In this document: positions 9,701-29,619 of the stretch, piece by piece
Numbering within the stretch: the first letter of the stretch is position 1
Layout: each line of letters begins with the position of its first letter
DNA from: a virus
Direction: 5' to 3' (one strand)
Virus record (IMG/VR): IMGVR_UViG_3300043775_003628
Span: 1 to 50,716 of that record
Length of the DNA stretch: 50,716 bases
Notes under the pieces: generated by a model
Told to the model about the DNA's origin: nothing
Seen by the model: only the letters and a program-made list of their open reading frames with translations
The model's database searches: none
Position numbers and translations under genes: made by a program

Positions 9701-12700
9701 TCAGCATCGAGAGTAAATGGAATCACTGGTAGTTTTGATACTATTATAAGAATATTAGAAAATGGATTAGGTGTTGTGCCTGCTGTTGTAAATAACAATA
9801 ATGCTAACATAAGAGTTACAAGTACACCAAACTATGTATCATCATCTTATAATGGTACATCAATTCAATCTGGATTCGTATCGGCATCTATTTCTATTGT
9901 AACTGATATAATTGCGAATGGAATTGGAAGTTTACCAACGATGAGTTTATATACATCATCATTCTCATCATCTGCTATATTAGATGCATACAACATATTA
10001 AAAGCACATATACCATTTATTCAGAATGAAACAATTGCATACCTAAGTTCTTCTTGGAGTACGGCATCGTATGATGAAGATAAGTGTAGAAGGGATATTG
10101 GTTTAATTATTAGTGGCGCGGCTGAAGACCTTATTTGGAACTCAAATTCTGCATCTATTGTAAATGGTAAGTTCTACTATGAGTACCCATCACAAGCACA
10201 AGGTGCACAGTTAAATCAAACTTTAGATGGTGTGTTCTACGCAAGCCGTTTAGCACAAAAAGTAATACTAAATACCGCATTTAATTTACCAACATCACAA
10301 TCTAATTTGGCGTATGACTTATTGGTAGAAAATAAAGAACTTATTCAGAATGAAACGATAGCATATATTTCTTCATCTTGGAGTACACATCAATATAATG
10401 AAGTTACTTGTAAGAGAGATGTAGGATATATTATAGATGCAGTAGCAACTGATATTAAGTGGGGTGGTAACGAAAGAACTATTAAAGCTGGTGAATTCTA
10501 TTACCTATATCCATCTGAAGCAACTGGTTCTCAATTAGAAGAAACTGTAACAGGTATAACTTATGCAAAAAATCTATCTGATAGAATTTTAAGAAGATTA
10601 CTATTACAAAATGTTTCTCAAAATAAATTACAGGCTAAAGAGTTAATATTCAACAACAAAGGATTTATACAAAACGAAGTTATTGAGTATGTATCGGCTA
10701 GTTGGAATGGTTTCTTATATAACGAAGAAACTTGTAAGAGAGATGTAGGATTCATTTTAGATGCAGTTATTACTGATGTGGTATATGGTGGTAATGAAAG
10801 AAGCCTTGAAGCTGGTAGATATTATTACTTATATCCATCTGAAGCAACAACAACTCAATTAGGACCAACATTAAGTGGAATTAGACACGCAAAAGGAATG
10901 GTTGAACAAGTATTAAAAGGTTCAACATTTGTTACAGCATCTAATTCAGCGCAAAATGTTTATAACCTATTATTAGATAATAAACAACTTATACAAAACG
11001 AAACAATAGCGTTTGTAAGTTCTTCTTGGAGTTTCTTCAATTACAACGAAGCAAGTTGTAGTAGAGATACCGGCTACATTGTAGATGCGGTAGCAACTGA
11101 TATTCTTTATGGTGGAAACGAAAGAGTAAGAGAAGCAGGTGAGTACTATTACTTATATCCTTCGTTAGCAACTGTTGATGGAGATGGTGATTCAGCTGGA
11201 CAATTGGGACAAACTTTAGATGGTATTAACTACGCTAAAGGTATTTCTACAAAGATTGCAGCAAATCAATTATTACAAACCGCAAGTATTTCGGAATTAA
11301 CTGCTTGGACATTATTAAGACAAAACAAACCATTAATTCAAAAAGAAACTATTGCATATCTAAGTTCTTCTTGGACAGGTGTAGACGGATTCTATTACAA
11401 TGAGGCTAGTTGTTCAAGAGATGTGGCATATATCATAGATAATGTAGCAACTGATATTTTATATGGTGGAAACGAAAGAAGTTCTAAAGCAGGAGAATAT
11501 TACTTCCTGTATCCATCTAAGGCAACTGTTGGTGGAGTACCATCGGTTAATGCACAATTAGAGCAGACAGTTCAAGGTATTAGATTTGCGGCAGGTAATG
11601 TACAAAACGTAATATCAAATAAAGTATTAACGCAACCAACTGAATTTGTATCATCTTCTGTGACTCTATTAACAAATAATAGAACATTCATTCAGAACGA
11701 AACAATTCAATACATAGATGCATTCTTCCCTAGTTTAGTTTACAATAGAGAGAAGTGTAGAAGGGATGTTGGATACATTGTTGATAACATAGCAACTGAT
11801 TTATGGTATGGTGGCAATGAAAGAAGTATTATCGCTGGAGATTACTATTATAGATACCCATCATTAGCAACTAAGCAAGAGCAAGTTAGAGAAACTGTGG
11901 CTGGTGTTGAGTACGCTAAAGCAGTATCTAAACAAATCGTACAAAATGTATTATTACAATCACCAACGTTAGGGTTAAATACTGATGCTAATATTAAAGT
12001 TGGAAATGTAGCACAAATTACTTCATCTATATCAGCTACTAATACGGAAGTATCAAACGTTAGTTCATCGTTTGCAACTGTAACTAAAATCATTGAAGGT
12101 GGTTTAACTTCATTACCAAACGTTGTATCTAATAACGAAGGTAGAATAAAAGTAACAAACGCACAACAATTTACATCTTCGATATCGGCAAGTTCGGTTG
12201 AAGTTGGTATTGTAACCGCATCATTTGGATTGATTAGAGATATTATCTATTGGGGTTCTGCATCTCTACCTGATTCATTGGCAAATAATTTCCAATATGG
12301 ATTTAATAATAGTGTACCAACATTATTGCGTATTTCTTCATTCACTCAAACATTAGGAAGTGGTGAATATAATGTACAAACTTCAAGCGTAAGTTCTTCA
12401 TTTGGTAATGTAATTAATGTTATCAACAACGGAACTGCATCATTGCAAACATTAAACGCAAACACATCAGCAAGTGTTAATATAAATGGAAATACTCCGT
12501 TTAAATCAACAACCTCTGGTTCTGAATATCAAAAGACTAGAATCGGAAACTTGTTTGGGTTGGTTATGAACATTGTTGAAAATGGTAGAGGTTCTATACC
12601 TACATTATTATCAAATACTTCAGCATCAATTAAAGTAACACAAACTCCACAAATTATAAGTGGTAGTGGTGCAGATAGATTGCAAGCAAGATTGATATCA

Positions 12701-15700
12701 TCTTCATTTGGAATTGTAGTAGATTCTCTATTGAATCTTGGTACAAGTTCTATATCTTATGTAGCACCAACTGGAATTAATACTAATCCAAAAATAACTT
12801 CTGCATATAATTTGTTATTGAATAACCAACAAATGATTATAGATGAAACCATAACTTATATGAGTTCATCTTGGAGTGGATTCCAATATACACAATCATT
12901 ATGTGAAAGAGATTTAGGATTGATTATTAGTGGAGCAGCATTTGATTTACTATGGGGTGGTAATTCTGCATCATTGGTAAATGGTAAATACTATTTTGAA
13001 TCTGCATCACAAGCAACAACAACTCAATTAGACCAAACAATTACCGCAATTAGATATGCGGGTGGAATAGCTGAAAAAGTTGTGAGAAATACAATATTAC
13101 AACATATATCTTCATCTTTAGAAACATCGGCATCTTACTCATCATTGATTAATAACAAACAATTTATACAATCAGAATCAATTTCTTATGTAAGTTCTTC
13201 TTGGGAAGGATTTATGTACGATGAAGTTAAGTGTAAGAGAGATGTTGGATATATTGTGGATGCGGTAGCAACGGATTTATTATATGGTGGAAATGAGAGA
13301 AGCATTGTGGCTGGAAGATACTATTATGACTTCCCATCACAGGCTACTTCAACTCAATTAGAACCTACATTGACTGGTGTGAGATATGCTAAAGGAACTT
13401 CAATGAATGTTGTTGTTAATACGCAATTCTTCTCACCAAATACTAATAACCAAACGGCTTATAACTTAATCAAAGATAATAAAGAGTTCATTCAGGAAGA
13501 AACTGTAGCGTTTGTAAACGCTAAATACCCTGAATTGGATTACATCGAATCTAAGTGTAAAAGAGATGTTGGATTTATTGTAGATGCAGTTTCAACTGAC
13601 TTACTATATGGTGGAAACGAAAGAAGTAACAAAGCTGGTGAGTTCTATTATTTATATCCATCTTTAGCAACTGAAAATGAGCAAGTAGTTGAAACAACAA
13701 CTGCGGTTGATTATGCTAGAAGATTAACACAAAATATTATTAATAGTGTAGTAATACCTACACCACAAATAATCTCTAATGCTCAAAATAGTATTAAGGT
13801 AACAAATACACCTCAATATTTGAGTTCATCATTTAGTGGTAGTGTATATGAAGCATCATTGATATCGGCATCAATTTCAATTGTAACAAATATTGTAGCA
13901 AATGGTATTGGTGTAGCAGGGAGTCCTGTAAATTATACAACACCATCAACTGCATCAAACGTTTGGTACGCTTATAACTTATTAAAAGAGAATATAGGAT
14001 TCATCCAAAACGAAACTATTGCATATATTAGTTCTTCTTGGAGTACAGCATCTTATGATGAGGCTAAATGTAAGAGAGATGTTGGTTTAATTATTAGTGG
14101 AGCAGCTGAAGACCTTTTATTTGGTGTAGATTCTGCATCGATTGTAAATGGTAAGTTCTATTTCGAATCAGCATCACAAGCAACTGGTGACCAATTAAAT
14201 TATACATTGGATGGATTGTTCTACGCAAGTAGATTAGCACAAAAAGTGGTTAGAAACGTAGAATTTGTGACAGCATCTTTATTAGTATCTGCATCTTACG
14301 CATTGATGAGAAATAATAAATTATTTATCCAATCGGAATCCGTAGAATATGTTGATTCTTCTTGGGTTGGATTGGATTATAATAAAGAAAAGTGTAGAAG
14401 GGATGTTGGCCATTTAATTGATGCAGTTTCAACTGACCTTTTATATGGAGGAAACGAAAGAAGTGCGATAGCTGGAGAATACTATTTCAAATATCCATCG
14501 GAAGCTACAACAGGTTCTCAATTAGACCCAACGGTAGATGCTATTGATTACGCAAGTGGTTTAGCAACTAAAGTAATTCAAAGTTTAACATTTGTAACTG
14601 CTTCTCAAATAGTATCTGCATCGGTTGGATTGTTGAGAGGAAATAGAAACTTCATACAGGAAGAAACAATGGCATACTTAACTGCTAGTTGGAGTACTTT
14701 TGATTATGATAAAGTAAAATGTAGAAGGGATGTTGGATACATCATTGATGGCGTAGCAACTGATTTACTATATGGTGGAAACGAAAGAAGTGTAATGAGT
14801 GGTGAGTTCTATTATAGATACCCATCTAAAGCAATACTATTGGGTGATGGTGATGGAGCTGGACAATTAAAACAAACTGTTGATGGTATAAACTACGCAA
14901 GTAGAATATCGCAAAAAGTTGTTAAGAATATTCAATTCCAAACTGCATCTTTAGAGGCATCAGCATCTTTTGATTTATTAAGAAAGAATAAAGAGTTTAT
15001 TCAGAAAGAGGGTATTGCGTATGTAAGTTCTTCCTGGAGTACTGTTTATTACAACCAATCAAGTTGTTCTCGTGATATTGGATACTTAGTAGATGCAGCA
15101 GCAACTGATGTATTATATGGTGGTAAAGAAAGAAGTGTAATAGCAGGAAACTTCTATTATCTATTCCCATCAAAAGCAACTAATGCTGGTGTACCATCTG
15201 AACAAAATCAATTAGACCCAACAATTACTGGTGTAAGATACGCTGGAAGATTGGCAACTAAAGTTGTAGTTAATCCTACATTTGTAGAAGCATCTGGTTC
15301 TGCATTAGGTGGTAGTAAATTATTACAATTAAATAAATCTTTAATTCAAAAAGAAACTATAACATTCTTAAGTTCTTCTTGGAGTACATTAGTTTACAAC
15401 GAAGCAAGTTGTTCTCGTGACGTAGGATTTATCATTGATGCCGTTAGGACTGACTTAGTTTATGGTGGTAATGAAAGAAGTATTGAAGCGGGTTCTTACT
15501 ATTATAAGATTCCTTCAGTAGCAATTAAAGAATCATATACTGATAACGGTACGGTTGGACAGAAAAAACAAACTGTTGATGGTGTAAACTATGCGGGTGG
15601 TATATCTGAAAAAATTGTAGCACAAACTCAATTAGTAAGACCTGGTACTAAGAGAATTGAAGCTACTAATAGATTAAGAGGAGCTAAAGATGAATTAAAA

Positions 15701-16267
15701 CAAAGAGCAATTGGATACACAAATGGAGCATTCCCATATTTAGTATATAATGAGGCTAGTTGTTCTCGTGATACTGGTTTGATTGTAGATGCTTGTTGTA
15801 CGGATTTATTCTATGGAGGAAATGAAAGAGGTATTGCAGCAGCATCATCCTATTTTAATGGACAATTCGGAAGTGCGGATGAAGTAATATTTAAACAAAG
15901 ACTAGAAACTCTTGAAACTAACAGATATTTAAGAACTAGAGCAGAGTTTATAGCAGCTGGGGCACCTGTTGAAGCATTTGGTTCATTGATTGTTGCAACT
16001 GGTATTGACTATTCTTATAATGGTAGTGGTGTGACATTTAAAGCACTTCCTCCAAATCAGGGTGGTAGTGGTGTTGCGAATCCGGCATTTGAAATTACCG
16101 AATTGGGTGGTGGTAGAATATTCTTTACCTCTGGTAACCAAGATGGTGACTTTAGAATTGGTACGGGTTTAAGTATTAATCAGGCAACTGGTACTCTTGT
16201 GGGTAGAACATTTAGTAAATCTCTATTCTCATTGGTAACTCCGTTCTCATTGGCACTACAAATTTAA
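3716..16267 (+). CDS. Giant 4183-aa fibre/whisker protein: beta-helix plus 22 helical one-Cys modules
   Basis: Residues 1-90 are GSL-type beta repeats (NITGSLII, VISGSLFV, EITGSVFV). Residues about 110-370 look like a right-handed parallel beta-helix of the type seen in cyanophage structural proteins (YPLRTIKRAAQLA, VQAGTYLEDNPV, GAFITTSPY, LNNSNISFGLYG). Then come blocks of beta-type linker modules (IKVT..Q..SS, SSSFxxVxxIIxNG) alternating with blocks of helical modules. Each helical module reads FIQNETIAYLSSSW, then C[KR]RDVGYIIDAV, YGGNERS, AGxYYY and YPSxAT, and spans about 107-117 residues. I count 22 helical and about 20 linker modules. A decayed cupredoxin-like domain sits at 619-728. 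The C-terminus (RIFFTSGNQDGDFRIG, SLFSLVTPF) matches a known phage fibre ending. A long trimeric whisker or side fibre that binds the host is inferred. Confidence 0.75.
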   Translation: MARLIPRKQIEEQQNITGSLIIRENLFLGNDAVISGSLFVSKSFFLGNDTGSKNEITGSVFVTGSFTVDGLFQLGSQTLFSGTASFASESVDTQRYAGILAKDFGANLPTLYVSSTDGDDTNDGRTIQYPLRTIKRAAQLASPGYDGRYGFDTGSVSNGYVIKVQAGTYLEDNPVILPSNTTIWGAGLRITKINAKNPSEDLFHVNSGCYIAEVTMGGLRLFPDQINPEKGFAVAFQPGAFITTSPYTQNCSQISNQENSFTELYEEIPPGGGGLYVNGDVIHPDSPLASMVLDAYTQISPNGVGCLVNGRGFIQLVSFFTNFSYYAIRVNNGGHATLNNSNISFGLYGMYASGSRFISGSGGNIDARNKVRQSWSVVVDVLNRGLDALPEITTLNTAEGIRATSLLQYPQLYLSGSEIANTPTTKNIEEVASDFKLVSTIVENGTSNFPTLLARSSNKGYGFESPYNILGAEQITSSLASASLETLNEISKSFGAILSIFSNGTGSFDFKSNTSSSIKVSSVTPVLPSISISNQITGSVSSSFETVISIISNGLTATPRVTSSNEAAVKVSNLDQFTTGVSASLQTTNKVSSSFSIIYNILDKGTGSVILPIPTNHIKNYTITNNGSSSYNWEGVGSNPTITLYRGETYKFYVSASSVLGGINYPFFIRTQPLSGISEQFDYDKGVINNGDAVGNITFTVPYDAPNELYYVAQNTNNMAGKFHIINNSATPFDLIANTLTYPQTISGSNESTDNIDLLNAYELLIGNKSFIEEETIQFVSSSWSDFDYVESTCRRDIGFLIDAVANDLIYGGNNNSITAGRFYYEYPSTATTTQKDPTKTAVKYTAGMVQKLLRGVTFVEPNNERDAVATSIRENREFIQNETITFLSSSWSNFYYNEAKCKRDVGYILDAVATDALYGGNERAVQAGQFYYLYPSLAIVEGDGDGLGQLGQTLDGIRFAAGNTVNIVRGIAHQTASLEIRESYRLLRENKRLIQNETIEFINVAFPQLKYNTETCRRDVGYIIDAISTDLLYGGIERSVTAGRYYYEYPSQATKSQKRETSGGIRYSKIISDFIVQNIILETPRIITNDEKLIKVVSGSNNITSSFSGTINEQNSISSSFAIIEGIIKRGTAAIPSILAQNSDLNWGIGIPLNVSGQTQITNSFVSSDEVEKLGSGFDVVTSILQNNGVEPVLTSSLQSQIKVTDNTQITGSVSNPYALTSSISASFGYVVEIISGGLSKIDPIISNVNGLIKVTPTTQWASGIVGTNSQTSSISSSFGSIINVIVSGTAALPTLVQNTNANRKVTSTPQFISASYSGSLEDITFVSQSISKVTQIVETGNVDLFGKTNYSATIATKVGVYEILKQNIPFIQNETIAYLSSSWAGFQYDEVKCKRDIGLIISGAAEDLLFGANSASIVNGQFYYEYPSQATIANDGDTGGQLNQTLDGINYASRLAQKVIQNVVFGLPSTEVSASNALLFNNKEFIQNETIAYLSSSWGGFDYNETTCKRDVGYIIDAVRTDLVYGGNERSRQAGLYYFLYPSQATGSQLLQTTDGVKYASNLSQKIVSGSIFQSADSDKLETSRLMRVNKGLIADEVVAYVSSSWSGVYYNESKCKRDVGFIIDAVRTDLVYGGNERTSIAGEFYYRFPSSATVGGVPSATAQLDPTTTGIEYASRLGQNIIQNKILTKPASDVLETATLVRNNRTFLQQNVIQFISQNYPNLDYLVDKCFRDVGFIVDGVVTDLVYGGNERSINSGRFYFKFVSKAIDEQLVETIAGIKFAKDLAKLTAIGGKAIEDGYDNVAKIIASGSSVAPTIVSNTENGIRKTFETQFTSSQNVTTSDKLLVSSSFANVINIISNGTGSIPTITKSSNRGVLVTSGSQITSSITSFVDDINKVESGFNIVTNIVENGLSVLPTLVKNTQNNIKRTDTIQFASTASISENIITSSNSAFDNVILIVNEGTDSTPSLVKNTANLVKISNTNQYIGTAAVSASRVNGITGSFDTIIRILENGLGVVPAVVNNNNANIRVTSTPNYVSSSYNGTSIQSGFVSASISIVTDIIANGIGSLPTMSLYTSSFSSSAILDAYNILKAHIPFIQNETIAYLSSSWSTASYDEDKCRRDIGLIISGAAEDLIWNSNSASIVNGKFYYEYPSQAQGAQLNQTLDGVFYASRLAQKVILNTAFNLPTSQSNLAYDLLVENKELIQNETIAYISSSWSTHQYNEVTCKRDVGYIIDAVATDIKWGGNERTIKAGEFYYLYPSEATGSQLEETVTGITYAKNLSDRILRRLLLQNVSQNKLQAKELIFNNKGFIQNEVIEYVSASWNGFLYNEETCKRDVGFILDAVITDVVYGGNERSLEAGRYYYLYPSEATTTQLGPTLSGIRHAKGMVEQVLKGSTFVTASNSAQNVYNLLLDNKQLIQNETIAFVSSSWSFFNYNEASCSRDTGYIVDAVATDILYGGNERVREAGEYYYLYPSLATVDGDGDSAGQLGQTLDGINYAKGISTKIAANQLLQTASISELTAWTLLRQNKPLIQKETIAYLSSSWTGVDGFYYNEASCSRDVAYIIDNVATDILYGGNERSSKAGEYYFLYPSKATVGGVPSVNAQLEQTVQGIRFAAGNVQNVISNKVLTQPTEFVSSSVTLLTNNRTFIQNETIQYIDAFFPSLVYNREKCRRDVGYIVDNIATDLWYGGNERSIIAGDYYYRYPSLATKQEQVRETVAGVEYAKAVSKQIVQNVLLQSPTLGLNTDANIKVGNVAQITSSISATNTEVSNVSSSFATVTKIIEGGLTSLPNVVSNNEGRIKVTNAQQFTSSISASSVEVGIVTASFGLIRDIIYWGSASLPDSLANNFQYGFNNSVPTLLRISSFTQTLGSGEYNVQTSSVSSSFGNVINVINNGTASLQTLNANTSASVNINGNTPFKSTTSGSEYQKTRIGNLFGLVMNIVENGRGSIPTLLSNTSASIKVTQTPQIISGSGADRLQARLISSSFGIVVDSLLNLGTSSISYVAPTGINTNPKITSAYNLLLNNQQMIIDETITYMSSSWSGFQYTQSLCERDLGLIISGAAFDLLWGGNSASLVNGKYYFESASQATTTQLDQTITAIRYAGGIAEKVVRNTILQHISSSLETSASYSSLINNKQFIQSESISYVSSSWEGFMYDEVKCKRDVGYIVDAVATDLLYGGNERSIVAGRYYYDFPSQATSTQLEPTLTGVRYAKGTSMNVVVNTQFFSPNTNNQTAYNLIKDNKEFIQEETVAFVNAKYPELDYIESKCKRDVGFIVDAVSTDLLYGGNERSNKAGEFYYLYPSLATENEQVVETTTAVDYARRLTQNIINSVVIPTPQIISNAQNSIKVTNTPQYLSSSFSGSVYEASLISASISIVTNIVANGIGVAGSPVNYTTPSTASNVWYAYNLLKENIGFIQNETIAYISSSWSTASYDEAKCKRDVGLIISGAAEDLLFGVDSASIVNGKFYFESASQATGDQLNYTLDGLFYASRLAQKVVRNVEFVTASLLVSASYALMRNNKLFIQSESVEYVDSSWVGLDYNKEKCRRDVGHLIDAVSTDLLYGGNERSAIAGEYYFKYPSEATTGSQLDPTVDAIDYASGLATKVIQSLTFVTASQIVSASVGLLRGNRNFIQEETMAYLTASWSTFDYDKVKCRRDVGYIIDGVATDLLYGGNERSVMSGEFYYRYPSKAILLGDGDGAGQLKQTVDGINYASRISQKVVKNIQFQTASLEASASFDLLRKNKEFIQKEGIAYVSSSWSTVYYNQSSCSRDIGYLVDAAATDVLYGGKERSVIAGNFYYLFPSKATNAGVPSEQNQLDPTITGVRYAGRLATKVVVNPTFVEASGSALGGSKLLQLNKSLIQKETITFLSSSWSTLVYNEASCSRDVGFIIDAVRTDLVYGGNERSIEAGSYYYKIPSVAIKESYTDNGTVGQKKQTVDGVNYAGGISEKIVAQTQLVRPGTKRIEATNRLRGAKDELKQRAIGYTNGAFPYLVYNEASCSRDTGLIVDACCTDLFYGGNERGIAAASSYFNGQFGSADEVIFKQRLETLETNRYLRTRAEFIAAGAPVEAFGSLIVATGIDYSYNGSGVTFKALPPNQGGSGVANPAFEITELGGGRIFFTSGNQDGDFRIGTGLSINQATGTLVGRTFSKSLFSLVTPFSLALQI
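4040..4830 (+). other. Parallel beta-helix domain of the giant protein
   Basis: Residues about 110-370. The opening YVSSTDGDDTNDGR and PLRTIKRAAQLA are typical of pectate-lyase-like phage domains, where the first helix caps the beta-helix. It is followed by short rungs with stacked hydrophobics and Asn. No obvious catalytic acid pair can be assigned by eye, so it may bind rather than cut polysaccharide. Confidence 0.6.
5572..5900 (+). other. Decayed cupredoxin-like domain
   Basis: Residues about 619-728 of the giant protein align with the two cupredoxin-like domains of the 3656-aa fibre: NPTITLYRGETYKF against NPTLTLVRGLQYTF, GVINNGDAVGNITFTVP against GVTNNGEDSGVITFTPP, and LYYVAQNTNNMAG against LYYNCQFHSSMAG. 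Three of four copper ligands are replaced: His by Tyr665, Cys by Ala713 and His by Thr716. Only Met719 remains. The fold is probably kept without the metal. Confidence 0.6.
5990..15860 (+). repeat. 22 helical CxRDVG modules in five blocks (3-4-6-3-6) with linker blocks
   Basis: Cys codons of the modules lie near 6095, 6419, 6764 / 7898, 8252, 8569, 8912 / 10085, 10411, 10732, 11058, 11410, 11756 / 12902, 13231, 13556 / 14069, 14392, 14720, 15064, 15409, 15761. Spacing inside a block is about 320-350 nt. The gaps between the first four blocks are 1134, 1173 and 1146 nt and each hold five linker modules. The last gap is 513 nt with one. The first module of blocks 2-5 is a variant with LIISGAAEDL and SASIVNG in place of YIIDAVATDL and ERSIVAG. 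Confidence 0.75.
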
Positions 16268-17286: not shown

Positions 17287-20200
17287 ATGGCAATTAGTAA
17301 TCTATTAACAGGAAGGGTAAGGGTAGTTTCACCTAAAAATGTAACACAAGAAAGGTATCAGTTTTTGGATTTATCTCAAGCTGAACCAAATTTAGGTGTC
17401 CCTAATTTCTCCGCATCACTTTCTGGTTCTCCAGCTATCGTAGTATCGGATGACCAAGGTAACAGAGGATTTGTAAGAAGTTTAGATTTAGATAGAGTAA
17501 CCGGGCAATTTACCGGTTCATTTACCGGTAGTGCTACTGATTTAAGCGGTAGTTTTTCTGGTTCTTTTACTGGTTCATTTATAGGTGATGGTTCAAGATT
17601 AGTTAATTTACCTGAAGTAACTAGAATTGCAAGTGGTTCTGCAACCGCATCTATTTCTCCCAATTTAGGATTTCAAATTAATGTAGATACAACGATTACT
17701 GAAAATCTTTATGTATCTAAATCAATTTATGCAGAACAATTAATTGTTTCTTATATTTCATCATCAATAATTTACTCATCTGGTTCAAATATATTTGGTG
17801 ATAATTATGATGATAGACAAGAATTTACTGGATCTGTATTAGTTAGTTCATCTATTATAGTAAATGATATAACTGCATCCCAATCTATAACAGGTTCATT
17901 TACAGGTTCATTCTTTGGCGATGGTAGAGATTTAAAAAATGTACAATCTGCAATTGAATCCGCAATATTAGCAAGTGGTTCGGTTACCGCATCGGTTGTT
18001 GGTGATATTTTAATAATAAATGCACAAAGTGCATCATTCTTAGGTGGTGTACAAATTACTGGAAGTTTACGTTTAACCACTGGTTCTGTTATTGTGGAAT
18101 CGGGTTCTATTATTGGTGCTAACGCTGTAATAACAGATTTTACAGCATCATCCGCAACCGGTTCATTTACGGGTTCTTTCTTTGGTGACGGTAGAAATTT
18201 ATTTAATTTACCAGAAGCAACAAAATTAGCAACAGGTTCTGTTACCGCATCTGTTAGTCCTGAATTTGGATTTAAAGTATTATCGGTTGCAAGTGGTTCT
18301 GAATTTACTGGAAGTGTAACTATTAGTGGTAGTTTAGAAATAACAGCAACTTCTGGTTCTCTTATTTTGGGGTCATCATCTGCATATTTTGGAGAAGGTA
18401 CTTATTTAAGAAATATACCAAGAACTGCATTAACTGAAGATGCATTAATATCAACCGAAATCAAATCGGGTTCAGTAACGGCTTCCGTATCACCTAACTT
18501 TGGATTTGTTGTAAAATCTGCCGCAAGTGGTTCTGAATTTACTGGTTCTGTTGATGTAAGTGGTAGTCTTACCGCACAATTTTTTATAGGAGATGGTTCG
18601 CAATTATTAAATGTACCATCAACAGTAGCACCTAGAATTGCAAGTGGTAGTGTAACTGCTTCCGTTTCTCCTGAATTTGGATTTAAAGTAGAATCATTAC
18701 AAAGTGGTTCTCAAATAACTGGAAGTGTTAATATTAGTGGTAGTTTATTTGTATCACCTTTTAGTGGTTCACTGCAATTAGCATCTGGTTCATCATACTA
18801 TGGTGAAGGCCAATATCTACGAAATATACCTCGTTCAGCACTTACTGAAGATGCACTAATATCAACCGAAATTAAATCAGGTTCAGTAACAGCATCGGTT
18901 TCACCTGTTTTTGGATTCAGAGTTGAATCGGAAGTAAGTGGTTCTGAATTTACTGGTTCAATTGATGTAAGTGGTTCGATATCGGCTTCTTTATTTCAAG
19001 GTGATGGTAGTGGTCTATTTAATATTCCATTATCTGCATTAGCAGAAGAAGTTTTAGTAACAACTCAAATTTCAAGTGGTAGTGTAACTGCTTCTGTATC
19101 TCCAAATTTTGGATTCAGAGTAGAATCTACACTTAGTGGTTCACAATTTACTGGTTCTTTATTGGTAAGTGGAAATGTTGAATTATATACCGGTTCATTT
19201 AGTGGTAGTGGTAAGAATCTTAGAGAAATTCCAAAATCGGCAATTTCTGATTTAGATACTTCATTAATATTTTCTGGTTCTGCAACAGCATCGGTTAATC
19301 CTGTAAGAGGATTTAATGTAAATATATTTTCACAATTTAGTGGAAGTATGTCCGTTTCATCTTCAAATTTTCCAATACCAACCTCATCTATAAATACTGT
19401 ATTTAATGTAAGTAACGCGGCTAGTACCGCATATACATTTACTGGAGCTGCAGAAGGTTCTAACCCAACATTAACTTTAGTAAGAGGATTACAATATACT
19501 TTTAATCTAAATGCAAGTGGGCATCCTTTCTATATAAAAGTAACACCATCAACTGGTATTATTTCTACATACGATAATGGTGTAACTAATAATGGTGAAG
19601 ATAGTGGTGTTATAACATTTACACCACCATCTGGTTCTCCTGATGTATTATATTATAATTGCCAATTCCATTCTTCAATGGCGGGTACAATTAACATAGT
19701 AGATGCCTTAGTAAGACCATCGTTAATAGAGTTTATTGGCCCAACAAAAATAACAGGAAGTTTAGCGGTAAACGGTAATGTAACTGCTTCGATGTATAGT
19801 GGTAGTGGTAGAGGGTTATTTGATATTCCTCGTTCTGCATTATCTGAAGAAGTATTTAGAATTGCAAGTGGTAGTATTAGTGCATCAGTATCTCCTGCAT
19901 TTGGATTTAAAGTAGAATCTTTAGGAACTGGTTCGCAATTTACTGGAAGTATTAATATTAGTGGTTCATTATTTGCGAGTGGCTCTATAACAGCATCTAG
20001 AGCTGTAATTGCACCTATAATTAGTGCATCATTTTTTGAAGGAGATGGTAGTAGATTACGAAATGTACCATCTGTTGAAAGTAATAGGATTGTTAGTGGA
20101 AGTATAACTGCTTCCGTTTCACCTGACTTTGGGTTTAAAGTAGATGCTGTAGGTCCTGGTAGTCAATTTACTGGAAGTATAAGAATTAGTGGAAGTGTAT

Positions 20201-23200
20201 TCATACCATCTGGAAGTGGTTTCTTTAGTGGTAGTGGTGCTGGGTTATTTGATATACCTCGTTCGGCACTTACTCCTGATGCATTAACAAATGTTGAAAT
20301 TAAATCAGGTTCAGTAACCGCATCGGTATCTCCAAATTTTGGATTCAAAGTTGAATCGATAGCTAGTGGTTCGGAATTTACCGGTTCGGTTGATGTTAGT
20401 GGTAGTTTACGAATAACTGGTACCGTAACTGCATCAATGTTTAGCGGTAGTGGTAGAGGGTTATTTGATATTCCGGTAGCTGCATTAGCAGATTTGGATA
20501 CATCAAAAATTTTTAGTGGTAGTGTAACTGCATCAGCAACTCCTAACTTTGGATTTGTAGTTACATCTGTTGCTAGTGGGTCTACGTTTAGTGGAAGCTT
20601 AGTAGTAAGTGGAAGTAGTAGATTCAGAATGGGTGTATCTGCATCCGTATTTAGTGGTAGTGGTGCTGGATTAACCGATATTCCTTTCTCTGCACTTTCT
20701 CAAGAATTATTTAGAATTGCAAGTGGAAGTGTAACAGCATCGGCATTGCCTGATAGAGGATTTGTTGTAGAATCTGTAGCAAGTGGTTCTAGGATTACCG
20801 GTAGTGTTGCAATTACGGGAAGTTTACGAATTACTACAACATCTGGTTCGTTAATATTAGATTCATCTTCTGCGTATTATGGTGAGGGTACTTATTTAAG
20901 AAATATTCCTAGAAACGCTTTAACCGAAGATGCGTTATTATCAACCGAAATCAAATCAGGTTCAGTAACCGCATCGGTATCACCAAATTTTGGATTTGTA
21001 GTTAAATCCGCTGCAAGTGGTTCTGAATTCACTGGTTCAATTGATGTAAGTGGAAGTGTTAGTGTAATAAGTGGAAGTTATTTCATTGGTGATGGTAGAT
21101 TCCTTAATAATATTACATTAGCGAATTTAGCAATTGATTCTACAAAAATATTTAGTGGAAGTGCTACTGCATCAATTTCGCCTGATAGAGGATTTGAAGT
21201 AAATGTTAATAGTAGAATAGATGGTAATTTAATAGTATCTTCATCCGCAAGAGCATTATCAACATCATCTATAAATACTGTATTTGATGTAACCAATGAT
21301 GGTAGTAACTCTTATATATTTAGTGGTTCGATACAAGGGGTAAATCCAACATTAACTTTAGTAAGAGGATTGGAATATACGTTTAATGTAAACGCAAGTG
21401 GACATCCTTTTTATATAAAAACCGCAAATTCAACTGGAACATCCAATACATATAATGATGGTGTTAATAATAATGGTGAAGATAGTGGTGTTATAACATT
21501 TACACCACCGTATGATTCACCAGATACATTATATTATAATTGCCAATTCCATTCTTCAATGGCGGGCACGTTTAATATTGTAAATTCTATAATATTACCT
21601 GCCGAAATAAGATTAATTGGTGAAACTAAAATTGAAGGTAATGTAACTGCATCAATGTTTAGTGGTAGTGGTAAAGGATTGTTTGATATTCCAATCGCTG
21701 CTATATCGGGTGATACTGTTAGAATTGCAAGTGGTAGTGTAACCGCATCCGTTGCACCTGATTTTGGATTTAAAGTTATCACTCCATTCACTTCATCAGT
21801 AGATATAAATGGTGTTTATAAAACTCAAATTGCTTCACAACTCACTGGTTCAGTAGATATAAGTGGTAGTTTGTATGTAAATGATATAAGTGGTGGTGTA
21901 TTTATAAATTCTTCTTCATTCTTGTACGCAGATGGTACATATCTTAGAAGAATACCTCGTTCAGCATTAACTGAAGATGCATTAATTAGTACGGAAATCA
22001 AAAGTGGTTCAGTAACCGCTTCCGTTTCACCTAATTTTGGATTTAGAGTAATAACTCCATTTACATCTTCTTTAGGTGAAAATGGGGTATTTACCGCATC
22101 AATAGCATCTCAATTTACCGGCTCTATTTCGGTAAGTGGTAGTATATTTGTAAATGATACGAGTGGTGGTTTATTCATAGAATCCTCATCATTTATCTAT
22201 GCAGAAGGTACTTATTTAAGACGAATACCTCGTTCGGCATTAACCGAAGATGCACTTATTTCAACTGAAATCAAATCTGGTTCGGTAACGGCATCGGTAA
22301 CACCTGATGAAGGATTTAGAGTTATTACTGATAGAACTGGTTCTCAAATAGGTTCTCAATTTACCGGTTCTATTGAAGTTAGTGGAAGTATTAGAGCAAC
22401 CGATTTTCTATTTGGTGATGGTAGATTTATTACCAATGTACAAGCGGCAGCAGCTCCTTTAATAGCAAGTGGTTCTGCAACTGCTTCGGTGGCAAGTGGA
22501 GAAACTTTTGTAGTAACAACTGCAAAAACTGGTTCACAAATTGGTTCTGAATTCACCGGTTCGGTTAGTGTAAGTGGCTCGATTTCGGCGTTTGATGTAA
22601 CATCAACCGGATTCTTCTTTGGTGATGGTAGATTTATTACTAATGTTGTAGCAACTGCGGCTCCATTTATTGCTAGTGGTAGTGCAACTGCATCGGTAGC
22701 AAATGGATTTGATTTTAGAGTAATAACTGCGGCAACGGGTTCGGAAGTAGGTTCTGAATTTACTGGTAGTGTAGAGGTTAGTGGTTCATTAAAAGCAGAT
22801 GATTTAACTGCAAGAGGATTTGTATTTGGTGATGGTAGATTCTTAACAAATGTACAAGCGGCGGCAGCACCTTTGATAGCAAGTGGTTCGGCTACTGCAT
22901 CTGTACAAAGTGGAGATACCTTCAGAGTAACAACTGCACCTTCATCTGGTTCATATCGTTCTCAATTTACATCATCGGTAGCAATTAGTGGTTCGGTAAC
23001 TGCATCGTTATTCATAGGTGATGGTGGTGGATTATTTAACATCCCACCTGATGCGATTGAAAACTTAGAGTTATTTAAAATTAACTCCGGTTCTGGTATT
23101 GCTATTATTGACCCAAACAAATTAAGTGTAAATGTACCAATTACCGCGGCTCGTTATGATGGTGATGGTAGTGGATTGTTTAACATTCCACCTGAAGCGT

Positions 23201-26200
23201 TGGATGACCTTAAGATTGATAGAATTCAATCTGGTTCACTTCAAGCGGTAATATCTCCGAACAGAGGATTAGAAATTGGAACTAGAACCTTTATATCTGG
23301 TAATTTAAGTGTTAGTGGTGGATTGTTTATCACTGGTGGGAATGTAATAGCAAGGTCTGGTTCATCATTTATTGGTGATGGTAGTGGTTTAACAAACATC
23401 AACATCGCTAATTTAGCATTTGAAACTTCAATATTAAAAAGTGGTTCATTTACGGCATCAATTTCTCCTGATAAAGGATTTGTAGTTAATTCATCAGCCA
23501 GTATTTGGGGTAATCTTTATATTGGCAATAATGTTACTGCTTACGATGTAACTGCATCACATAGAGTATTTGCACCATTATTTACCGGTTCATTCTTAGG
23601 TACATATAATTTCCAAGGAGTTGGACCAACTGCATCTGCACAATATGATATTTTAAGATTTGATGAGGCGAGAGGATATTTTATACCTCAACCTGAAACA
23701 TCATTAACTGAAACCGTATCGTTTAATAGTGTAAGTGATTTAACTATCGTACACAATTTGGGTATAAGATATCCAATGGTACAAGTATATGCAACTGGTT
23801 CTGAAGACCAAATATTACCTGGACAAATAATTGCAATCGATGAAGATACAATCCAACTTAAATTTGCTGGATTAACTTCTGGACATGTTGTAATTGGTAG
23901 TGGAGGTTCATTGATTAATGGTACAATTCCTGGTGATAGAGTATTTGGAAATGTACTATCTTCATCATACGCAATTAAAGCTGGTGTAGCGGAAGCGGTG
24001 GCGGGATTTGATTCATCTTCTTTGGCGCAATTATCAGCATCATTAGGTGATACTGCACAATATGTAAGAAACAATCAAACATCCTCAATGGCGGTGTTTA
24101 GTGCGGTGAGTGCATCTTATGCATTAACTGCATCATACGCATTAAATGCGGGAGATGGTGGTGGTACTGATTTATTTGTTTATTATACGAGTTCGTTAGT
24201 AAAATCACAAGTTGCAAAAATAAACTTTAGTGGTTCTGGCGTAAATTTAGTTCCATCTGGTTCGGATGGTGTATTAGTAACAATTAATGGTGGGTTAGCT
24301 CAGAGCTCTCAAACAGCATCTTACATATTATCAACTGGTGTAGATGGACCTTTGGGAATGGATAGTGTAACATTTGCACTTTCTTCATTAACTGCATCAT
24401 ACGCATTAAATTCGGCGAATACTGATACATCATCATTCTTAAACATTAATAGTGACCAAACAATAAACGCATCACTTACAATAAGTGGAAGTTTGGGAGT
24501 AAGTGGTAGTGTTGCATTTAGTAGTAGTATAGCATTTCAAAGTTTACCTTCTGGTTCATCAAACGAAGTTGTTATTTGGGACCCTATAACTAAAAGATTA
24601 GCATATAGAAACGTAGCTGCGGCAGTTGGTTCATCTGGTACCGGTGGTACTTCCGGAACTTCGGGAACTAGTGGAATTTCGGGAAGTAGCGGTTCTTCCG
24701 GTTCATCTGGTTCATCTGGAAGTAGTGGAAGCAGTGGAAGTAGTGGAAGCAGCGGAAGTAGTGGTGCTGATGGTACTTCCGGTTCTTCTGGTTCATCCGG
24801 AAGTAGTGGTTCGGTAGGAACATCGGGAAGTAGTGGAACTTCTGGTTCATCTGGTTCAAGTGGAAGTAGTGGTTCAGCAGGAACATCTGGTTCATCCGGA
24901 ACTTCAGGAAGTAGCGGTTCATCGGGTACTTCTGCTACAAGTGGAACATCTGGTTCAGATGGTTCTTCGGGAAGTAGTGGAAGTAGTGGAACTTCTGGTT
25001 CAAGTGGAAGCTCCGGAACATCAGCAACTTCAGGAACTTCAGGAAGTTCTGGAACATCTGGAACATCGGGAAGTAGTGGTTCATCTGGTACATCTGGTAG
25101 TAGTGGAACTTCTGCAACAAGTGGTACATCTGGTAGTAGTGGAAGCTCGGGTTCATCCGGTAGTGGAGGAACTTCTGGTTCATCCGGTAGTGGAGGTACA
25201 AGTGGAACTAGTGGAAGTTCAGGAACTGCAGGCTCATCTGGAAGTAGTGGTACTTCTGGTAGTGGAGGTACGAGTGGTTCTTCGGCATCTTCCGGAACAG
25301 GAGGTACTTCGGGAACCTCTGGTACATCTGGTTCATCCGGTACAAGCGGCACTTCGGGAAGTAGTGGTAGTGGAGGAACTTCTGGTTCTTCAGCATCTTC
25401 CGGAACCGGAGGTAGTGCTGGTACATCGGGTACATCTGGCACAAGTGGCACATCAGGAACTTCTGGTTCATCCGGAAAAGATGGTTCATCGGGAACATCG
25501 GGAACTTCTGGTTCATCTGGGCAAGCTGGTACATCGGGAACTTCTGGCACATCTGGAAGCAGTGGAACATCTGGAACTAGTGGTAAAGATGGTACTTCGG
25601 GAACATCTGGAAGTAGTGGAACTTCAGGAACATCTGGTTCAGATGGTTCATCTGGTTCAAGTGGAAGTAGTGGAAGTAGTGGTACTTCGGGTACAACGGG
25701 TTCATTTGGTACATCGGGTTCATCAGGAACTTCTGGGAGCAGTGGTTCATCTGGAAGCAGTGGAACATCCGGTTCATCTGGTTCGGCAGGAACTTCAGGA
25801 AGTAGTGGTTCATCGGGAACTTCAGGAAGTAGTGGAACAAGTGGTACTGATGGAACTTCTGGTTCTTCTGGTTCATCGGGAACTTCTGGAACAACTGGTT
25901 CATTTGGAACATCTGGAACAAGTGGAACTTCTGGTTCTGATGGAAGTAGTGGAACTTCTGGTACTGATGGAACTTCTGGAAGTAGTGGTTCATCTGGTTC
26001 TTCTGGCACATCCGGAACGGATGGTTCTGCAGGTACTTCTGGTATAGATGGTACTTCGGGAAGTAGTGGTTCATCCGGTACATCCGGTTCATCTTCTACA
26101 TCTGGTTCATCTGGAACTAGTGGAAGTAGTGGAACAACTGGAAGTAGTGGAACTTCGGGAAGTAGTGGCTCTGATGGTTCATCTGGAACTGCTGGTTCAT

Positions 26201-28257
26201 CTGGAAGTAGTGGAAGTAGTGGAAGTAGTGGCACATCAGGAACTTCAGGTTCTGCTGGAACTTCTGGTTTAGATGGAACTTTCTTTGGTAGTAGTGGTAC
26301 TTCTGGTACAAGCGGCACTTCGGGAACATCTGGCACAACAGGAACATCTGGAACATCTGGATTAGATGGAACATTCTTTGGTAGCAGTGGAACTTCTGGT
26401 GAAAGTGGAAGTAATGGTACATCTGGTAGTAGCGGAACTAGTGGCACAACTGGTTCTTCCGGAACTAGTGGTAGTAGTGGTATAACAGGTACATCGGGAA
26501 CTTCTGGCTTAGATGGAACTTTCTTTGGTAGTAGTGGAAGTTCGGGTTCATCGGGAACAACCGGGACAAGTGGTACATCTGGTACATCCGGTACAAGTGG
26601 TACATCTGGTGTGGATGGAACTTTCTTTGGTTCATCTGGAACGAGTGGAGAAACTGGTACATCCGGTACATCCGGTACAACGGGTACCTCTGGTACATCG
26701 GGTGAAAGTGGAACTGCAGGGACTAGTGGTAAAGATGGAACTTTCTTCGGAAGTAGCGGCACAACAGGAACTTCGGGAACTTCGGGAACATCTGGTACTT
26801 CTGGTACAAGCGGCACATCGGGAAGTAGCGGTTCTTCTGGTTTAGACGGAACTTTCTTTGGTAGTAGTGGTACAACAGGAACATCTGGTTCAAGCGGAAG
26901 TTCGGGTACTGCAGGTTCAGCCGGTAGTGGTGGTACATCTGGAACTAGTGGAACGAGTGGAGAAAGTGGAACTTCTGGATTGGACGGTACATTCTTCGGT
27001 AGTAGTGGTACGAGTGGCGAAAGTGGAACATCCGGAACAGGCGGCACTTCTGGTTCAAGTGGGACTACTGGTACTTCTGGTACTTCTGGTGAAAGTGGAA
27101 CTTCTGGTTTAGACGGAACTTTCTTTGGAAGTAGTGGTACAACGGGAACTTCGGGAACTTCAGGAATAAGTGGAAGTGAGGGAACTTCCGGAACTTCAGG
27201 AAGTAGTGGAACTTCTGGTTTAGACGGAACTTTCTTTGGAAGTAGTGGTACAACGGGAACTTCGGGAACATCTGGTGAAAGTGGAACGAATGGAACATCT
27301 GGTGAAAGTGGAACTGCTGGTTCATCTGGTACAAGTGGATTTGATGGTACATTCTTTGGAAGTAGTGGTACAACAGGAACATCTGGAACATCTGGTTCGG
27401 CAGGCACATCGGGAATTAGTGGAAGTAATGGTTCTTCTGGTACATCTGGTAAAGATGGTACTTTATTCGGAAGTAGTGGTACATCCGGAACATCAGGTAC
27501 ATCGGGAGCGGGTACATCTGGTACATCCGGATTGGGTACGAATGGTTCATCGGGAACCAGTGGTAAAGATGGAACTTTCTTTGGAAGTAGTGGTACATCA
27601 GGTACATCGGGAGCGGGAACATCGGGTACATCTGGAACATCTGGTTTAGGCACATCAGGTACATCGGGTGTAAATGGTACATTCTTTGGAAGTAGTGGTA
27701 CAACGGGAACTTCGGGAACATCTGGAGCAGGTTCATCCGGTACTTCTGGTGTTAGTGGAACGAATGGAACATCTGGTTCTTCTGGATTCTTAAATTTAGC
27801 AGGAACAACTGATAATGGTATTATTACTTGGAATAACCCATTAACATTTGGTAATGTTGAAAGTAATTTAACTTTTGATGGTTCAACTTTAAGTGTAACT
27901 GGAAATACTGAAAATAGTGGATATGTAGCATCAACAACATATAGAGAAACTTATTCTGATTTAGGAACAGGAGGAAGTGTAACATTAGACCTTTCAACTG
28001 CAAATAACTTCAGAAGACAATTTAATGGAACAGCAACAATTACAATAAGTAATGCACCTGGAGCTCCTAGAGCATTTGGATTTACTTTAACTGCTGTAAA
28101 TGCTGGGGCACATGTAATAACTTGGCCTGCTAGTATAGATTGGGTTAGTGGAACAGCACCTATATTAACATCAGCAGGTACGGATGTATTAACATTCTTT
28201 ACATTTAATGGTGGTACAACTTATTACGGATTTGTAGTTGGAAAAAATATGAGTTAA
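17287..28257 (+). CDS. Giant 3656-aa tail fibre: SGSVTAS modules, two cupredoxin domains, collagen-like tract
   Basis: Residues about 60-2050 hold about 24 copies of a beta module: SGSVTASVSPxFGFxV, then SGSxFTGSxxVSGSL, then FxGDGSxLxNIP and a short helix (ALTEDALISTEIK). The GDGSGL motif is common in phage fibres. Two cupredoxin-like domains lie at residues about 704-807 and 1332-1434. A 'HNLG' beta domain lies near 2150-2205, followed by ASYALTASYAL segments. Residues 2448-3500 are a Gly-X-Ser collagen-like tract without proline. Residues 3501-3656 form a tip (VESNLTFDGSTLSVTGN, TLTAVNAGAHVITWPASIDW, TFNGGTTYYGFV) known from phage fibre ends. The protein is inferred to be a trimeric long tail fibre. 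Small downstream genes probably assist its assembly or attachment. Confidence 0.75.
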   Translation: MAISNLLTGRVRVVSPKNVTQERYQFLDLSQAEPNLGVPNFSASLSGSPAIVVSDDQGNRGFVRSLDLDRVTGQFTGSFTGSATDLSGSFSGSFTGSFIGDGSRLVNLPEVTRIASGSATASISPNLGFQINVDTTITENLYVSKSIYAEQLIVSYISSSIIYSSGSNIFGDNYDDRQEFTGSVLVSSSIIVNDITASQSITGSFTGSFFGDGRDLKNVQSAIESAILASGSVTASVVGDILIINAQSASFLGGVQITGSLRLTTGSVIVESGSIIGANAVITDFTASSATGSFTGSFFGDGRNLFNLPEATKLATGSVTASVSPEFGFKVLSVASGSEFTGSVTISGSLEITATSGSLILGSSSAYFGEGTYLRNIPRTALTEDALISTEIKSGSVTASVSPNFGFVVKSAASGSEFTGSVDVSGSLTAQFFIGDGSQLLNVPSTVAPRIASGSVTASVSPEFGFKVESLQSGSQITGSVNISGSLFVSPFSGSLQLASGSSYYGEGQYLRNIPRSALTEDALISTEIKSGSVTASVSPVFGFRVESEVSGSEFTGSIDVSGSISASLFQGDGSGLFNIPLSALAEEVLVTTQISSGSVTASVSPNFGFRVESTLSGSQFTGSLLVSGNVELYTGSFSGSGKNLREIPKSAISDLDTSLIFSGSATASVNPVRGFNVNIFSQFSGSMSVSSSNFPIPTSSINTVFNVSNAASTAYTFTGAAEGSNPTLTLVRGLQYTFNLNASGHPFYIKVTPSTGIISTYDNGVTNNGEDSGVITFTPPSGSPDVLYYNCQFHSSMAGTINIVDALVRPSLIEFIGPTKITGSLAVNGNVTASMYSGSGRGLFDIPRSALSEEVFRIASGSISASVSPAFGFKVESLGTGSQFTGSINISGSLFASGSITASRAVIAPIISASFFEGDGSRLRNVPSVESNRIVSGSITASVSPDFGFKVDAVGPGSQFTGSIRISGSVFIPSGSGFFSGSGAGLFDIPRSALTPDALTNVEIKSGSVTASVSPNFGFKVESIASGSEFTGSVDVSGSLRITGTVTASMFSGSGRGLFDIPVAALADLDTSKIFSGSVTASATPNFGFVVTSVASGSTFSGSLVVSGSSRFRMGVSASVFSGSGAGLTDIPFSALSQELFRIASGSVTASALPDRGFVVESVASGSRITGSVAITGSLRITTTSGSLILDSSSAYYGEGTYLRNIPRNALTEDALLSTEIKSGSVTASVSPNFGFVVKSAASGSEFTGSIDVSGSVSVISGSYFIGDGRFLNNITLANLAIDSTKIFSGSATASISPDRGFEVNVNSRIDGNLIVSSSARALSTSSINTVFDVTNDGSNSYIFSGSIQGVNPTLTLVRGLEYTFNVNASGHPFYIKTANSTGTSNTYNDGVNNNGEDSGVITFTPPYDSPDTLYYNCQFHSSMAGTFNIVNSIILPAEIRLIGETKIEGNVTASMFSGSGKGLFDIPIAAISGDTVRIASGSVTASVAPDFGFKVITPFTSSVDINGVYKTQIASQLTGSVDISGSLYVNDISGGVFINSSSFLYADGTYLRRIPRSALTEDALISTEIKSGSVTASVSPNFGFRVITPFTSSLGENGVFTASIASQFTGSISVSGSIFVNDTSGGLFIESSSFIYAEGTYLRRIPRSALTEDALISTEIKSGSVTASVTPDEGFRVITDRTGSQIGSQFTGSIEVSGSIRATDFLFGDGRFITNVQAAAAPLIASGSATASVASGETFVVTTAKTGSQIGSEFTGSVSVSGSISAFDVTSTGFFFGDGRFITNVVATAAPFIASGSATASVANGFDFRVITAATGSEVGSEFTGSVEVSGSLKADDLTARGFVFGDGRFLTNVQAAAAPLIASGSATASVQSGDTFRVTTAPSSGSYRSQFTSSVAISGSVTASLFIGDGGGLFNIPPDAIENLELFKINSGSGIAIIDPNKLSVNVPITAARYDGDGSGLFNIPPEALDDLKIDRIQSGSLQAVISPNRGLEIGTRTFISGNLSVSGGLFITGGNVIARSGSSFIGDGSGLTNINIANLAFETSILKSGSFTASISPDKGFVVNSSASIWGNLYIGNNVTAYDVTASHRVFAPLFTGSFLGTYNFQGVGPTASAQYDILRFDEARGYFIPQPETSLTETVSFNSVSDLTIVHNLGIRYPMVQVYATGSEDQILPGQIIAIDEDTIQLKFAGLTSGHVVIGSGGSLINGTIPGDRVFGNVLSSSYAIKAGVAEAVAGFDSSSLAQLSASLGDTAQYVRNNQTSSMAVFSAVSASYALTASYALNAGDGGGTDLFVYYTSSLVKSQVAKINFSGSGVNLVPSGSDGVLVTINGGLAQSSQTASYILSTGVDGPLGMDSVTFALSSLTASYALNSANTDTSSFLNINSDQTINASLTISGSLGVSGSVAFSSSIAFQSLPSGSSNEVVIWDPITKRLAYRNVAAAVGSSGTGGTSGTSGTSGISGSSGSSGSSGSSGSSGSSGSSGSSGSSGADGTSGSSGSSGSSGSVGTSGSSGTSGSSGSSGSSGSAGTSGSSGTSGSSGSSGTSATSGTSGSDGSSGSSGSSGTSGSSGSSGTSATSGTSGSSGTSGTSGSSGSSGTSGSSGTSATSGTSGSSGSSGSSGSGGTSGSSGSGGTSGTSGSSGTAGSSGSSGTSGSGGTSGSSASSGTGGTSGTSGTSGSSGTSGTSGSSGSGGTSGSSASSGTGGSAGTSGTSGTSGTSGTSGSSGKDGSSGTSGTSGSSGQAGTSGTSGTSGSSGTSGTSGKDGTSGTSGSSGTSGTSGSDGSSGSSGSSGSSGTSGTTGSFGTSGSSGTSGSSGSSGSSGTSGSSGSAGTSGSSGSSGTSGSSGTSGTDGTSGSSGSSGTSGTTGSFGTSGTSGTSGSDGSSGTSGTDGTSGSSGSSGSSGTSGTDGSAGTSGIDGTSGSSGSSGTSGSSSTSGSSGTSGSSGTTGSSGTSGSSGSDGSSGTAGSSGSSGSSGSSGTSGTSGSAGTSGLDGTFFGSSGTSGTSGTSGTSGTTGTSGTSGLDGTFFGSSGTSGESGSNGTSGSSGTSGTTGSSGTSGSSGITGTSGTSGLDGTFFGSSGSSGSSGTTGTSGTSGTSGTSGTSGVDGTFFGSSGTSGETGTSGTSGTTGTSGTSGESGTAGTSGKDGTFFGSSGTTGTSGTSGTSGTSGTSGTSGSSGSSGLDGTFFGSSGTTGTSGSSGSSGTAGSAGSGGTSGTSGTSGESGTSGLDGTFFGSSGTSGESGTSGTGGTSGSSGTTGTSGTSGESGTSGLDGTFFGSSGTTGTSGTSGISGSEGTSGTSGSSGTSGLDGTFFGSSGTTGTSGTSGESGTNGTSGESGTAGSSGTSGFDGTFFGSSGTTGTSGTSGSAGTSGISGSNGSSGTSGKDGTLFGSSGTSGTSGTSGAGTSGTSGLGTNGSSGTSGKDGTFFGSSGTSGTSGAGTSGTSGTSGLGTSGTSGVNGTFFGSSGTTGTSGTSGAGSSGTSGVSGTNGTSGSSGFLNLAGTTDNGIITWNNPLTFGNVESNLTFDGSTLSVTGNTENSGYVASTTYRETYSDLGTGGSVTLDLSTANNFRRQFNGTATITISNAPGAPRAFGFTLTAVNAGAHVITWPASIDWVSGTAPILTSAGTDVLTFFTFNGGTTYYGFVVGKNMS
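19398..19707 (+). other. Cupredoxin-like domain 1, type-1 copper ligands intact
   Basis: Residues about 704-807. After NPTLTLVRG come GHPFYIK (His746) and LYYNCQFHSSMAGTINI (Cys792, His795, Met798). The spacing Cys-x2-His-x2-Met equals that of amicyanin (Cys92, His95, Met98), and the upstream His completes a type-1 copper set. Copper binding is inferred and not shown. Confidence 0.65.
21282..21588 (+). other. Cupredoxin-like domain 2, type-1 copper ligands intact
   Basis: Residues about 1332-1434, a near copy of domain 1. Ligands are His1373, Cys1419, His1422 and Met1425; the His-to-Cys spacing of 46 is the same in both. The DNA over the ligand loop is identical to domain 1 for more than 30 bases, so the duplication is recent or maintained by gene conversion. 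Confidence 0.65.
24628..27786 (+). repeat. Proline-free collagen-like Gly-Thr/Ser-Ser tract, 1053 aa
   Basis: An almost unbroken Gly-X-Y series in which X is mostly Thr or Ser and Y is Ser, with occasional Ala, Asp, Glu, Lys-Asp or Leu-Asp. From about 26270 a four-residue interruption recurs: a [LVKF]DGTFFGSSG segment that appears 13 times (one with GTLF, one with VNG), about every 33-50 residues. Base composition rises well above the AT-rich flanks. All six serine codons and several glycine and threonine codons are used, so DNA identity between triplets is low. Confidence 0.9.
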
Positions 28258-29175: not shown

Positions 29176-29619
29176 ATGTATTTAAGAATAGTAAATAATA
29201 CAACAACCTACCCATATACAATAAAAGATTTAAGAGAATCTTTGCCAAATGTAAGTTTACCTGCTAATTTGACAAATGAGCACTTAATAGAGTGGGATAT
29301 GTATGAGGTAGAGTTTACACCTGCACCAATTGATTATACAAAAAATATTATAGAAGGTGCTCCAACTTTAATAGATGGTAAATACTATCAAAATTGGGTA
29401 CAAACTAATGCAACGGAATCCGAAATTGAACAGAGATTAGAAGATAAATGGTTTGAAGTTAGGGAAATACGGAACCAATTATTACAAGAATGTGATTGGA
29501 CTCAATTGGGTGACATATCAACTGAAACTAAAAATATTTGGAGTAATTATAGACAAGAATTGAGAGATGTAACAAATCAATCAAATCCTTTCAATATAAA
29601 TTGGCCTGTTAAACCTTAA
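29176..29619 (+). CDS. Tail-fibre / tail assembly chaperone-like protein (Phage_tail_APC type)
   Basis: A 147-aa protein. The C-terminal 60 residues carry the family signature: an EVREIRNQLLQECDWTQLGD helix, KNIWSNYRQELRDV, and a final NINWPVKP. These match the pattern R..R..LL...DW.Q..D...........W..YRQ.LRD.........WP.KP of the phage tail assembly chaperone family (PF16778 as I remember it). Members sit next to fibre genes and are thought to help fibre folding or attachment. The N-terminus (MYLRIVNNTTTYPYTIKDL) begins like other fibre-associated proteins. The start follows the previous stop by a single base. Confidence 0.7.
   Translation: MYLRIVNNTTTYPYTIKDLRESLPNVSLPANLTNEHLIEWDMYEVEFTPAPIDYTKNIIEGAPTLIDGKYYQNWVQTNATESEIEQRLEDKWFEVREIRNQLLQECDWTQLGDISTETKNIWSNYRQELRDVTNQSNPFNINWPVKP

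Follow-up and report, generated by a model that had tools for sequence, protein, structure and literature searches.

Whether a phage tail fibre can carry type-1 copper sites, and what such sites would be used for, is the question raised by the 50.7-kb virus record analysed here, the whole of which (50,716 nucleotides) we call the window. It comes from an uncultured phage of freshwater type. Tail genes are spread along its whole length, with annotated sheath, tube, baseplate hub, head-tail adaptor, sheath stabiliser and tail-fibre assembly proteins. The features on which the question turns are these:

Positions 17287 to 28257, plus strand: tail-fibre-like protein of 3656 amino acids (Pfam Collagen, 2.3e-97).
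Positions 19399 to 19704, plus strand: predicted cupredoxin domain, copy 1, with His746 (19522), Cys792 (19660), His795 (19669) and Met798 (19678).
Positions 21280 to 21585, plus strand: predicted cupredoxin domain, copy 2, with His1373 (21403), Cys1419 (21541), His1422 (21550) and Met1425 (21559).
Positions 29176 to 29619, plus strand: protein of the tail-fibre assembly family (PHROG 4912 and 8716), which supports the fibre context.
Positions 38994 to 41369, plus strand: tail sheath protein, the context of a contractile-tailed phage.

The collagen-like repeats of the 3656-residue protein, the tail-fibre assembly gene just downstream and the surrounding tail genes suggest that this protein is a tail fibre. 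It is laid out as a repeat shaft, the two predicted cupredoxin domains, a C-terminal half of collagen-like Gly-Ser/Thr sequence and a small C-terminal domain. Antisense to the collagen-like half, an open frame of 1038 amino acids occupies positions 24537 to 27653 of the minus strand and probably arises only from the codons of the repeats. Beyond the tail tube and hub genes, between 43289 and 50583, no PHROG match was obtained for three large ORFs of 770, 651 and 901 amino acids. The best isolate match of the tail sheath was that of Microcystis phage Mel-JY01 (47%), and its nearest relatives came from a Microcystis phage and from Flavobacterium phages. With these neighbours, and with psbA absent from the 22 related contigs examined, the window's assignment to a cyanophage was not supported.

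The earlier note had named the four residues given above for each copy as ligands, and a re-reading of the open reading frame reproduced all of them exactly. The domains are of about 102 amino acids each, copy 2 lies exactly 627 residues past copy 1, and both present His, Cys, His and Met at the amicyanin spacing, Cys-x2-His-x2-Met. Cys792 and Cys1419 are the sole cysteines of the entire protein; a disulfide role was rejected, since there is one cysteine per domain, each at a ligand position. The ligand loop, LYYNCQFHSSMA, is the same in both copies in protein and in DNA (12 of 12 codons) and is covered by an identical run of 39 bp at 19647 to 19685. This identity had been singled out in the earlier note, and it is real, but its special status is weak, because DNA identity over the full domains is 80% and a second run, of 42 bp at 19587 to 19628 (copy 1 coordinates), is identical as well. 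The same codon is used at 48 of the 68 other residues common to both copies, which puts the naive chance of 12 out of 12 near 0.015.

The sequences flanking copy 1 differ from those flanking copy 2, yet each set is kept across relatives. The 627-residue spacing recurs in relatives, where it is the commonest, and copy 2 of the window clusters in the tree with copy 2 of relatives. Both copies are therefore old, and neither has lost its ligands. The same shaft repeat is also found in relatives without the domain (at residue 275 of locus L001, for example), from which it appears that the domain is a cassette.

An AlphaFold2 model of the domain, run on a 46-sequence alignment of the family and containing no metal, gave a sandwich of eight strands (pLDDT 97.7, pTM 0.89). 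In a prediction that included the shaft, the domain was confident and its flanks were of low confidence. A Foldseek comparison of the model with the PDB gave 21 matches at E ≤ 0.001, and every one was a cupredoxin or a copper enzyme that contains a cupredoxin. Rusticyanin came first (1.1e-5); the others were AcoP, three-domain nitrite reductase, plastocyanin, pseudoazurin and a multicopper oxidase. Amicyanin came next, at 1-2e-3, together with a pseudoazurin engineered to carry the amicyanin loop. The quality of these matches was modest, with TM-scores of 0.4 to 0.6 and rmsd values mostly of 4 to 8 Å. In the model, Cys91 closes strand 86-91, the loop ahead of strand 98-104 carries His94 and Met97, and His45 immediately precedes strand 47-50, a placement that we take to be plastocyanin-like, with the ligands at type-1 positions. 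The reading put forward in the earlier note depended on a cupredoxin fold, the Greek-key beta-sandwich of about eight strands, and such a fold is what the prediction and the PDB matches returned.

Sequence similarity to known copper families was more distant. PF00127 (plastocyanin/azurin) matched nowhere in the window, and distant family members scored 19.8 and 14.4 bits, under the cut-off of 21.2 bits. At weak E-values, PF00127 was matched by 4 of 46 family members and PF13473 by 2; a P-SSM2 fibre (1.8e-4) and P-TIM68 gp9 (0.007) gave further bridges to these families. The family profile aligned the Cys, His and Met of the domain onto those of nitrite reductase 6hbe (E 0.097). Half the family (23 of 46; best 6e-7) matched PF25489, At5g54830-like, and the window copies scored about 18 bits (18.1 for copy 1, and 20.7 for the whole protein) against a cut-off of 27. 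NCBIfam returned no match for the window domains, and a PDB sequence search with one domain returned only a chance match, a tail terminator. Direct capture of a plastocyanin gene was rejected, since cyanophages have a separate petE and the profiles of the domain and of cyanophage plastocyanin barely match (hhalign probability 6%). The domains resemble the type-1 blue-copper proteins (amicyanin, pseudoazurin, plastocyanin, rusticyanin and AcoP) in predicted fold, in strand order near the ligands and in the amicyanin spacing, whereas those proteins are free in the periplasm or thylakoid and the domains here lie within a virion fibre and stay under the family cut-offs. Each domain is likely to be a genuine cupredoxin-fold module with a real type-1 metal site.

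A survey of homologous fibres for ligand conservation had been proposed in the earlier note. We compared 95 non-redundant domains with less than 70% mutual identity. His, Cys and His were kept in 83 of the 95, a fraction inflated by the partial use of His-motif patterns in retrieving the loci, and in 82 of these Met was kept as well, in the same order and spacing. The survey thus came out in favour of the two ligand-complete sites, whose four residues recur beyond chance. Among the 84 domains with the Cys, the first His was present in 83, the second His in 83 and the Met in 82, at a median identity of 46%, and the ligands stayed fixed down to 17% pairwise identity. They form the most conserved columns, together with an adjacent Pro and a Tyr. 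The site was intact in all 23 domains from cells, in 15 of the 16 from isolate phages and in 45 of the 56 from viral contigs. The sole intact domain without Met, an Acidobacteria copy (L068), has Gln at the axial position, as in stellacyanin.

The 12 domains that had lost the site had lost it almost completely: 11 lacked both the Cys and the second His, one kept the Cys and lacked the other three ligands, and none of the 95 had lost the first His with the remaining ligands kept. Scaffold residues (e.g. YY, NNG, G) were mostly 83 to 100% conserved in these site-less domains. Co-loss of Cys and the second His gave p = 1.5e-13 (Fisher, relatedness ignored), a merely indicative value, since the best tree has about 10 changes, 3 of them on well-supported branches, and independent losses are modest in number. 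As read from the alignment, this all-or-none loss matches the prediction for a metal site. A broken copy stands beside other copies in seven fibre ORFs, each of which also keeps an intact one, and ORFs with a broken copy alone belong mostly to one orthologous group, a big baseplate-region protein. An isolate, Synechococcus phage RN05-S (L199), offers a natural negative control, since the site is gone from its tail-fibre copy (Phe/Ala/Val). The window contains a member of the baseplate-region group, with a third copy of the domain:

Positions 5573 to 5896, plus strand: ligand-less third copy, within the ORF of 4183 amino acids at 3716 to 16267, with His replaced by Tyr, Cys by Ala and His by Thr, and Met kept.

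Orthologues of this copy read among L171-L180 likewise lack the ligands. With the same scaffold, no site and a place in a nearby gene, the third copy gives the window its own natural control.

The persistence of ligand-less copies on the same scaffold, in the group of the 4183-residue ORF and in a few fibres, indicates that in some contexts the fold can do without metal, and many Ig-like domains of phages are metal-free. The domain might accordingly be a metal-free, Ig-like beta-sandwich that serves as adhesin or spacer, its ligands kept by packing or by recent descent. This would account for the ligand-less copies and not for joint conservation elsewhere: the ligands are fixed at 46% median and 17% minimum identity, all 23 cellular domains keep them, their loss is nearly all-or-none and spares the neighbouring residues, and packing would not predict that Cys and both His disappear together. 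We regard this explanation as unlikely. If the site does hold a metal, Zn, Ni or Fe in a structural role would be an alternative to copper. The Cys/His/His/Met sites of apo-cupredoxins take up Zn in recombinant proteins, and Zn exceeds free copper in the cytoplasm. The conserved Met and the exact type-1 loop nonetheless point to copper, and another metal seems very improbable.

We infer that copper would be acquired late. The fibre would fold in the reducing, copper-poor cytoplasm of the host, with the site empty yet preformed, and, the cytoplasm having nearly no free copper, loading would most likely follow lysis, when the fibre could pick up copper from the water. The metal would then lock an exposed decorating domain in both its loop and its sandwich, and the domain would offer a stable surface for cell contact. 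This whole account, a type-1 copper module in the fibre shaft that is loaded after lysis and stabilises a surface domain, we give an even chance, and that a stabilising or adhesive role is the main use of the site we propose tentatively, at somewhat below even.

Two further uses of a copper site were weighed. A fibre copper could exchange electrons with a redox partner on the host surface, so as to sense or trigger attachment. The axial Met, which tunes redox potential and is unneeded in a purely structural site, is present in 82 of the 84 Cys-bearing domains, as such a function would have it. No redox partner gene was seen and Pfam found no further redox domain in the fibre; the position ahead of the loop His, which is Pro in amicyanin and plastocyanin, is here variously F, L, Y, I, N or S. 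Nothing in this analysis as a whole favours electron transfer, and we consider it extremely doubtful.

Copper at an exposed loop might instead act as bait, recognised by a copper-binding or copper-uptake protein of the host surface by analogy with the Trojan or Ferrojan Horse proposals for iron. T4 gp9 belongs to the baseplate and not to the fibre tip, the window domains are mid-shaft and away from the tip, carriers of the domain infect hosts as different as cyanobacteria, Pelagibacter and Actinomycetia, and no copper receptor of these hosts emerged from the analysis, all of which count against such bait, whereas the location of the domain in isolates, in fibres and at the C-terminus of gp9, and the retention of at least one intact copy per fibre would suit it. 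There is also a published precedent in iron-binding His-x-His sites of phage fibres (T4 gp37, alterophage R22Y), for which a role in receptor contact has been suggested (PMC11705849); these are metal-binding fibre residues too, and differ in fold, metal and ligand set. Receptor bait appears rather unlikely, and a stabilising or adhesive copper site remains the reading we prefer.

The domain is widely distributed. A search of isolate-phage proteins returned 347 records with it, nearly all from Synechococcus and Prochlorococcus phages, with a Pelagibacter phage (at a looser limit) and an Actinomycetia phage among the other carriers; podoviruses carry it too. It occurs in isolates in fibres and in gp9, the baseplate wedge tail fibre connector, and in many of them it is the C-terminus of gp9, the N-terminus of which matches T4_gp9_10_N, as in S-SM1, whose virion proteomics has been published (PMC3037559). 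The C-terminal domain of PHROG 677, which comprises cyanophage gp9, is homologous to the two window domains (6.5e-24 and 5.9e-28, over profile positions 298-411 and 283-412 of 412) and carries these four ligand residues in almost every isolate read. Pfam found no T4_gp9_10_N in the 3656-residue protein, so PHROG 677 and the fibre have the domain in common and not the whole protein: gp9 has a single C-terminal copy, the window fibre two internal ones.

We found no source that names the gp9 C-terminal domain a cupredoxin, and the open literature, to which our search was confined, contained nothing linking cupredoxins to phage fibres or cyanophages. The cupredoxin fold is known; its placement in virion fibres, and on this scale, is apparently undescribed in the open literature searched, and the domains appear to form a large family of virion cupredoxins. 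That the ligands are conserved in so many cyanophages is surprising. Few particles in surface waters are as abundant as cyanophage virions; if copper does occupy the sites, these virions would be copper proteins and the gp9 C-terminal domain would gain a defined chemistry, with consequences for how phages attach and for trace-metal chemistry. Given the domain in marine cyanophage tails, copper on the attachment machinery may be a feature of many phages. A bolder proposal, which we think doubtful, is that a large fraction of aquatic tailed phages bear loaded blue-copper centres on baseplate and fibres and use the copper to recognise the host, or as a switch of redox state or stability that is set only after release; virions of this kind would in addition form a copper-binding pool in natural waters.

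Cellular relatives, at most 60% identical over the domain, occur in secreted-looking proteins of Bacteroidota, Acidobacteriota, Neomarinimicrobiota and other bacteria; they keep the ligands, lack fibre repeats and are presumably cell-surface or secreted proteins. Among those at L061-L092, the domain follows several CHRD domains in Flavobacteriaceae proteins and four DUF7282 domains in a Marivirga protein. In the viral structure library BFVD, the fold matched fibres and gp9 proteins of cyanophages and, among large DNA viruses, beta-sandwich proteins that include small ones from Pithovirus- and Marseillevirus-like genomes.
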